From Bacillota bacterium (lineage in GTDB: Bacteria; Bacillota; Clostridia; Peptostreptococcales; Anaerovoracaceae), in contig JAFYYP010000023.1 in the NCBI GenBank assembly GCA_017557505.1, positions 1 to 62,217 on the forward strand: 62,217 bases of DNA, written 5' to 3'. Below are positions 5,193 to 27,303 of the stretch, piece by piece; the first letter of the stretch is position 1, and every line of letters begins with the position of its first letter. The notes beneath the pieces are model-generated. The model saw nothing but the letters and a program-made list of their open reading frames with translations. It was not told where the DNA came from and searched no databases. A program made the translations under genes and the position numbers.

Positions 5193-5298
5193 TACGGGGA
5201 CGGTCTTCGGACCGGGCAAACACGCTCGGCCCGCTCTGTCGCTTCGCTCCGGCGCTTGCAGACGACCTCGCTTAGTTTACCCGGCTCCTCAGCCCGTA
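5193..5298. repeat. Structured repeat, copy A (second copy at 27195-27303)
   Basis: This stretch lies between two convergent genes. It has an outer inverted repeat (TACGGG 5193-5198 with CCCGTA 5293-5298) and an inner stem (CCGGGCAAAC 5212-5221 with GTTTACCCGG 5275-5284, one mismatch). Blocks TCGGACC, ACGCTCG, TCGCTTCGCTC, CCTCGCTTA and GGCTCCTC occur in the same order and at nearly the same spacing in copy B, while the stem arms differ in sequence and remain complementary. It has no T-run and so is not a normal terminator. The function is unknown; a structured RNA or a palindromic repeat family is possible. Confidence 0.75.
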
Positions 5299-27194: not shown

Positions 27195-27303
27195 GTGAGT
27201 TAGTGCTCGGACCAATATTCAACGCTCGTCAACACTTTGTTCGCTTCGCTCACGCGTTAGCGATTTCCTCGCTTATGAATATTGGCTCCTCGCATTTACT
27301 GAC
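27195..27303. repeat. Structured repeat, copy B (first copy at 5193-5298)
   Basis: The inner arms CCAATATTCA (27212-27221) and TGAATATTGG (27276-27285) are perfectly complementary. Outer flanks (GTGAGTTAGTGC with GCATTTACTGAC) extend the stem imperfectly. The enclosed blocks ACGCTCG (27222-27228), TCGCTTCGCTC (27241-27251) and CCTCGCTTA (27267-27275) match copy A, as do TCGGACC and GGCTCCTC at the stem base. Only the eight variable arm positions differ, and they differ in a compensating way. It lies at the exact point where the rapZ-whiA neighbourhood is interrupted. Confidence 0.75.

Follow-up and report, generated by a model that had tools for sequence, protein, structure and literature searches.

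A probable REP-like palindromic DNA element with changing, complementary arms in a genus of ruminant-gut Clostridia

The closest described systems are the GTAG- and CGTC-tagged REPs, which are palindromic, intergenic, multi-copy repeats of 20-40 bp, some of them moved by RAYT transposases, and which, where genes are tandem or convergent, lie near the upstream gene's 3' end, according to the accessible text of one study (PMC3733652). The same text describes REP sub-families with alternative complementary stem residues and G.T pairs, and the TIR families of TIRYT genes, which are partly self-complementary repeats linked to Y1 transposases (PMC3733652). We analysed a stretch of 62,217 nt (the window) from an Anaerovoracaceae genome, G000, together with seven other genomes of the same genus (G001-G007). 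The window holds two copies, A and B, of a hairpin family that we call family I.

Family I resembles the REPs of the accessible text (PMC3733652) in being palindromic and multi-copy, in its placement after 3' ends and stop codons, in its complementary stem variants and in its G.T pairs. Thirty-eight of 39 aligned copies could be placed relative to genes, the one left out (L007) being cut at a contig end; 28 of them are in tandem, 7 in convergent and 3 in divergent settings, and a stop codon lies within 20 nt of the element in 33. Thirty distinct arm pairs occur among 38 copies. Family I differs from the REPs in size, since its full-length model matches span 76-123 nt against 20-40 bp in that text (PMC3733652), and in its ends, no constant GTAG or CGTC being seen by eye in the 39 aligned rows; the foot seen most often is GAGGAG / TCCGA, and 20 of 38 copies have its G.A part. 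Also unlike REPs, it has a tandem G.A loop and a bulged G and is strongly oriented relative to the upstream gene, and the search for a Y1 gene linked to it found none.

The first-pass annotation had reported two copies sharing five blocks in the same order. The blocks indeed start at 5207 and 27207 on the plus strand, with no third place in the window and none on the minus strand. Pairing reaches past the end blocks, where 8 extra nucleotides per side pair in part in both copies, and the spans given by the model are those of Table 1.

Table 1. Parts of the two family I copies of the window and their neighbouring genes (window coordinates; R2, second covariance model)
Feature	Position	Strand	Details
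Copy A, whole element (outer helix, arms, centre)	5199..5298	- (folding strand)	R2 93.9 bits, E 1.5e-24; copy A among rows used to build the model
Copy A, neighbouring genes			CbiQ gene (+) and Lit gene (-), convergent; basis Pfam
Copy A, outer helix, left side	5199..5206		GACGGTCT; pairs in part with 5291-5298
Copy A, block TCGGACC	5207..5213		folding strand GGTCCGA, half of the outer tandem G.A loop
Copy A, left arm	5214..5221		GGGCAAAC
Copy A, centre	5222..5274		ACGCTCG ... TCGCTTCGCTC ... CCTCGCTTA; inner tandem G.A loop and tip
Copy A, right arm	5275..5282		GTTTACCC
Copy A, block GGCTCCTC	5283..5290		folding strand GAGGAGCC; bulged G and outer tandem G.A loop
Copy A, outer helix, right side	5291..5298		AGCCCGTA
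Copy B, whole element	27199..27299	-	R2 88.3 bits, E 6e-23; copy B among rows used to build the model
Copy B, neighbouring genes			RapZ gene (+) and BKACE gene (+), tandem; basis Pfam
Copy B, block TCGGACC	27207..27213		
Copy B, left arm	27214..27221		AATATTCA
Copy B, centre	27222..27275		
Copy B, right arm	27276..27283		TGAATATT
Copy B, block GGCTCCTC	27284..27291		

From the outside inwards, the minus-strand fold of copy A consists of the outer helix, a tandem G.A/G.A loop, three pairs (GGA/TCC), a bulged G and a ten-pair arm helix. Further in come a loop containing AA, two more pairs, the second tandem G.A/G.A loop and the tip, which in our own reading is made of TCGC/GCGA and CGC/GCG helices. 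On both sides of the outer tandem G.A loop the GA is preceded by a pyrimidine and followed by a purine; G.A pairs in such a setting would be of the sheared kind. Of 38 distinct copies, 37 retain the inner tandem G.A loop, 36 the bulged G and 20 the outer tandem G.A loop, which the other copies have paired, altered or missing. Copies of a short form (76-79 nt, for example L041-L047) have a simpler tip, and the tip of L059, L063 and L068 is longer and still paired.

A search by DNA similarity to copy A gave 12 matches in the source genome, copy A included. Two covariance models were built, R1 from nine copies and R2 from 39 matches. The R2 search of the genus found 43 family I matches in six of the eight genomes, the source genome included (20 in G000, 2 in G001, 6 in G002, 3 in G003, 2 in G004 and 10 in G005), and none in G006 and G007. 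Such a search had been proposed in the first-pass annotation, and the 20 matches of the source genome and those of its relatives have arms that pair, apart from the truncated copies L022 and L023 of G000, whose right half is gone so that the arms cannot pair. The R1 search of 61 genomes (the source genome and relatives) found family I in six genomes and in one of 49 genera. The R2 search of the taxonomic family found it in 6 of 296 genomes and in one of 92 genera, all belonging to this genus; this search was coarse, with 13 candidates scored for each genome listed and 11 of the 20 G000 matches recovered, and weak relatives may be missed by it.

Scanning of a wider contig collection with the exact pattern, in which the source genome was possibly absent, gave 15 matches, 12 of them in contigs of G001-G005 already counted. 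The match in L079 (Myxococcales) was rejected, as the model gave a chance-level match elsewhere only, and so was that in L071 (Phycisphaerales), which had no model match. A weak model match (20.6 bits, E 0.004) at 426-520 of L082, from a sheep-rumen Clostridia MAG, is either a distant relative or chance. The first-pass annotation knew of no described family that fits, and this agrees with the Rfam searches. At the gathering threshold only two tRNAs were matched in the whole window and family I was not, and a permissive search (E up to 5) of four family I loci gave BjrC68 as the best overlap, whose 17.1 bits fall short of the threshold of 39. No description of family I was found in the accessible part of the open-access literature.

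The arms of copies A and B each pair with their own partner, as had been claimed. We examined this covariation in an alignment of 39 of the 43 R2 matches, the other four having no locus or turning up later, in which an identical row was counted once to give 38 distinct copies. Of 1153 cells, 90.8% were paired, compared with 29-41% when the 3' partner was slid by 1-3 columns, which upholds the claim that arm structure and not arm sequence is kept. Changes on both sides were seen in 22 of 32 pairs, and the doubly changed cells numbered 257 against a shuffled mean of 86, with none of 500 shuffles as high; this alignment was fitted to the covariance model, and related copies inflate the pair-change counts. 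Nine source-genome copies aligned without the model had 91.7% of their cells paired and two-sided changes in 14 of 32 pairs. The covariation of family I is real and strong.

The arms had also been described as completely different and unrelated in the two copies, which does not hold, since intermediates exist. On the folding strand the distinct arm pairs form series, one running through GTTATTCA, GATATTCA, GATATCCA and GGTATTCA to AATATTCA of copy B and another through GGGCAAAC, GGACAAAC, GGTCAAAC and GGGTAAAC of the A type. B-like arms (GGTTTTCA) are joined to an A-like centre in L038 and L049; the arms of L020/L038, on contig C17 of G000, are GGTTTTCA/TGAAAACC around an A-type centre, and those of L049 in G003 are similar. 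Because of these series and intermediates, A and B are the ends of a range and not two independent inventions.

Copy A has a single imperfect pair, which reads C.A on the plus strand and G.T on the minus strand, as first reported. Over the arm and inner pairs of the family, the minus strand carries 26 G.U and 3 A.C wobbles, a count that includes copies sharing one event (by eye, about 13 events against 3). The wobbles of the outer helix, 8 G.U and 15 A.C, show no skew to G.U. Single folds of the minus strand were more stable in eight of nine copies, copy B being the exception by 1.1 kcal/mol. Judged from these comparisons and from the tandem G.A loop that 37 of 38 copies keep, the minus strand is the strand that folds.

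The orientation of this strand was compared with that of the neighbouring genes, which were called by codon usage with a caller trained on 12 hand-picked tiled ORFs of the window, a few calls resting on small ORFs (for example one of 36 aa beside L068). In tandem settings the folding strand was antisense to the upstream gene in 25 copies and sense in 3, or 22 and 3 without three orthologous duplicates (p 1.6e-4), so that host mRNA would mostly carry the other strand. The wobble had been taken as a hint of the strand that is transcribed; the hint holds for the strand that folds and not for transcription, which is spoken against by this antisense placement, by the flanks outside the outer helix, in which no common sequence was seen by eye, and by the promoter consensus scan, which found none at copy A and no minus-strand match at A or B. 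The scan gave one weak plus-strand match near copy B, with 0.6 expected by chance.

We queried seven source-genome sites in the relatives, of which L033 gave no alignment. At the other six (A, B, L031, L034, L036 and L038) the element is missing from the aligned orthologous sites, and thus it comes, or goes, as a unit. Some of these empty sites, such as those of L034 and copy A, hold other hairpins. In the closer pair G002 and G005, eight of nine queried copies were compared, L068 being left out and L064 compared twice. Sites without the element were found for L058, L062 and L066, L063 was filled in both genomes, L055, L064 and L065 faced other hairpins, and the left side of L060 was not alignable.

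The L066/L123 site is the clearest filled/empty pair. G002 has AAGGGCGGCCCTT, divided into TTGCAAGGGCG and GCCCTTCGAC, and G005 has AAGGGCG-element-GCCCTT with the directly adjoining DNA the same, the element splitting the palindrome. At this gene end G000 has no hairpin by eye and G001, G003 and G004 have other hairpins; given these varied states, the L066/L123 difference is an insertion or a loss. A CCCTGAGCCTGTCGAAGGG palindrome, which we take to be a widespread bacterial repeat, adjoins the split palindrome at both L123 and L066. Opposite L065, G005 has a plain terminator-like palindrome that matches the left arm and, less well, the right side. Splitting of a palindrome is not general, because the empty sites of L058/L122 and L062/L124 are also without the outer helix and the L034 site in G001 has no palindrome.

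Identity among seven A-type copies (of the 20 source-genome matches) was 0.97 for the centre, 0.895 for the arm helix and 0.88 for the inner outer-helix positions together with the G.A bases. It fell to 0.33 in the outermost 5+5 positions, a drop that places the edge of the unit. These outermost positions pair in 52 of 68 cells among 17 G000 copies (shuffled 47%) and in 103 of 147 cells among all 38 copies (shuffled 44%), with none of 5000 shuffles as high in either case. An energy test with 12-nt flanks, from which L007 was also left out, gave a weak result (own -2.7, shuffled -1.8, best shuffled -3.0), and the outer helix of L038 hardly pairs. The outer pairing of family I is probably real, just a few pairs long.

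A second family, family II, is the palindrome found at a G002 site that we take to be ackA-rpmF-like and at the site orthologous to L064. Its centre of about 91 nt has 38 matches in seven of the eight genus genomes and none in G003; among the copies are L168, L175, L181, L187 and L191 in G002 and L170, L177, L183, L188 and L194 in G001. Family II resembles family I in its TCGGAC ... TCCTC ends (in most copies), its conserved centre, its copy-specific complementary arms and a wobble skew of the same sign. It differs in the centre itself, in its arms of about 20 nt, in having no clear orientation bias (10:7, one convergent) and in its distribution, with partial matches in the two genomes that lack family I (G006 and G007) and none in G003, where family I is present. 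At five sites, one species has a family I copy and another species a family II copy. On contig C37 of G001, the family I copy L048 and the family II copy L188 lie about 50 nt apart.

The arms of family II were tested on copies extracted by BLAST, 30 of the 38 matches being fetched and 18 of these having the full centre. In all 18, the 20 nt outside TCGGAC ... TCCTCG paired best with their own partner, with a mean energy of -29.1 against -11.8 when shuffled and -18.2 for the best shuffle; a gapless pair count agreed (11.4 vs 9.2). Of 351 aligned pairs 335 were Watson-Crick, and the wobbles were G.U in 8 and A.C in 1 (p 0.04). The orthologous copies L177 and L184, whose flanks are 89% and 85% identical, differ in two arm pairs, clearly in one (C-G to T-A) and probably in the other (G-C to T-A, beside an alignment gap); in addition, one innermost pair of L184 is no longer Watson-Crick. 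The two paired changes, one clear and the other probable, point to arms changing in situ.

We searched the element-bearing genomes for a mobiliser. Y1_Tnp (PF01797, E up to 0.001) was absent from four of the six (G000, G003, G004 and G005) and present in G001 and G002. All six genomes are incomplete, G000 being 87% complete, so a Y1 gene may be missing from them and its absence is not final; G005 holds ten copies yet no PF01797. Four Y1 stretches of G001 and G002 were examined, three of which have clear hairpins, all of them other than family I. As in the TIR/TIRYT systems, repeats of a self-complementary kind are here found with Y1 genes; these hairpins have GGGGAC-type loops and differing arms, do not resemble the family I blocks and have, by eye, no tandem G.A loop. 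An origin of the RAYT type, with a cognate Y1/HUH gene flanked by the repeat, is not supported, given PF01797 in two of six genomes and other hairpins there. At L164 (contig C55 of G002) and at L165 and L166 (G001), hairpins near Y1_Tnp have a loop similar to GAACCGTCCCC and arms that differ, and L156 has a longer, nested hairpin inside the arms known from L166.

We favour, with a probability of about 0.6, the reading that family I is a REP-like, non-autonomous palindromic DNA element in a new form, so far found in one genus of ruminant-gut Clostridia. The folded single-stranded DNA would be what a trans-acting enzyme recognises, and since the loop and tip are fixed and the arms drift by paired changes, this enzyme may read the loop and tip and merely measure the arms. 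The paired drift of the arms would possibly be helped by template switching within the hairpin. The element may be able to settle at the centre of a palindrome, and part of the outermost helix may be its target, as the one clean filled/empty pair suggests. The arms could instead be kept complementary by mutation alone, template switching at replication copying one arm onto the other without selection on structure. Template switching has been reported to create and maintain hairpin stems, and is a known source of compensated ones, in the accessible text of PMC8794818. The nearly perfect, copy-specific arms of family II (335/351 Watson-Crick; 18/18) and the outer helix of family I, in which G.U is not preferred, fit such upkeep. 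We nevertheless hold upkeep alone to be unlikely, as template switching by itself does not predict the one-strand G.U skew of families I and II (26:3 and 8:1, counts weakened by shared events) and the inner tandem G.A loop is kept in nearly all copies while the arms change. Folded-strand selection or template switching would account for arms that remain complementary, and both may act together.

The first-pass annotation had left the choice between a structured RNA and a palindromic mobile repeat. The latter agrees with the DNA element that we favour; a structured RNA, either a small RNA or a UTR element made from the folding strand, seems very improbable to us, even though covariation, tandem G.A motifs and a G.U skew are typical of structured RNAs. 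Single-stranded DNA is preferred over RNA chiefly on account of the antisense placement, and the absence of a common flank, of a minus-strand promoter match at A or B, of an Rfam match and of the element itself at orthologous sites also speaks against RNA, as does family II, which has the same wobble skew and no clear orientation preference. An intrinsic, often bidirectional, terminator or a stabiliser of mRNA 3' ends would suit the stop codons close to most copies, the 7 of 38 copies between convergent genes, the gene-sense T-runs at some copies (for example L046, L047, L054, L057, L062 and L068) and the plain terminator-like palindrome of G005 at the L065 site. This function is equally doubtful, since a GC-rich hairpin followed by a sense T-run is not the general pattern: T is only mildly raised in the 10 nt after the element (0.38, with A at 0.31, in 39 copies), and the terminator scan found none at copies A and B, in line with the T-run reported as lacking there. 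A terminator does not need the conserved G.A loop, the tip or the orientation either.

Arms that change in step are normally taken as proof of a functional RNA. Family I gives the same covariation signal, yet it differs between species like mobile DNA and lies mostly antisense to its neighbours. RNA-like covariation from a mobile-type element thus calls for caution when covariation is used to discover RNAs in gut metagenomes. Family I also offers a natural test of two questions: whether hairpin complementarity comes from folded-strand selection or from template switching, and whether hairpin tips are places where some elements settle. We tentatively suggest a wider class of hairpins with renewable arms, in which a conserved centre might settle at palindrome or hairpin tips and the arms might be taken from, or rebuilt at, each site, so that each copy would have an inverted repeat matched to itself alone. 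The rule would hold for families I and II at the least and for the GAACCGTCCCC-loop hairpins close to Y1 genes of this genus, all of which would nest in one another and swap places at the same gene ends. A third repeat of about 116 nt was seen 16-48 nt from four element copies in G002 and G005, and also elsewhere; its places include the left flank of L060, positions 58940-59055 of contig C9 and 61250-61365 of contig C7 in G005, and positions 12491-12606 of contig C75 in G002.
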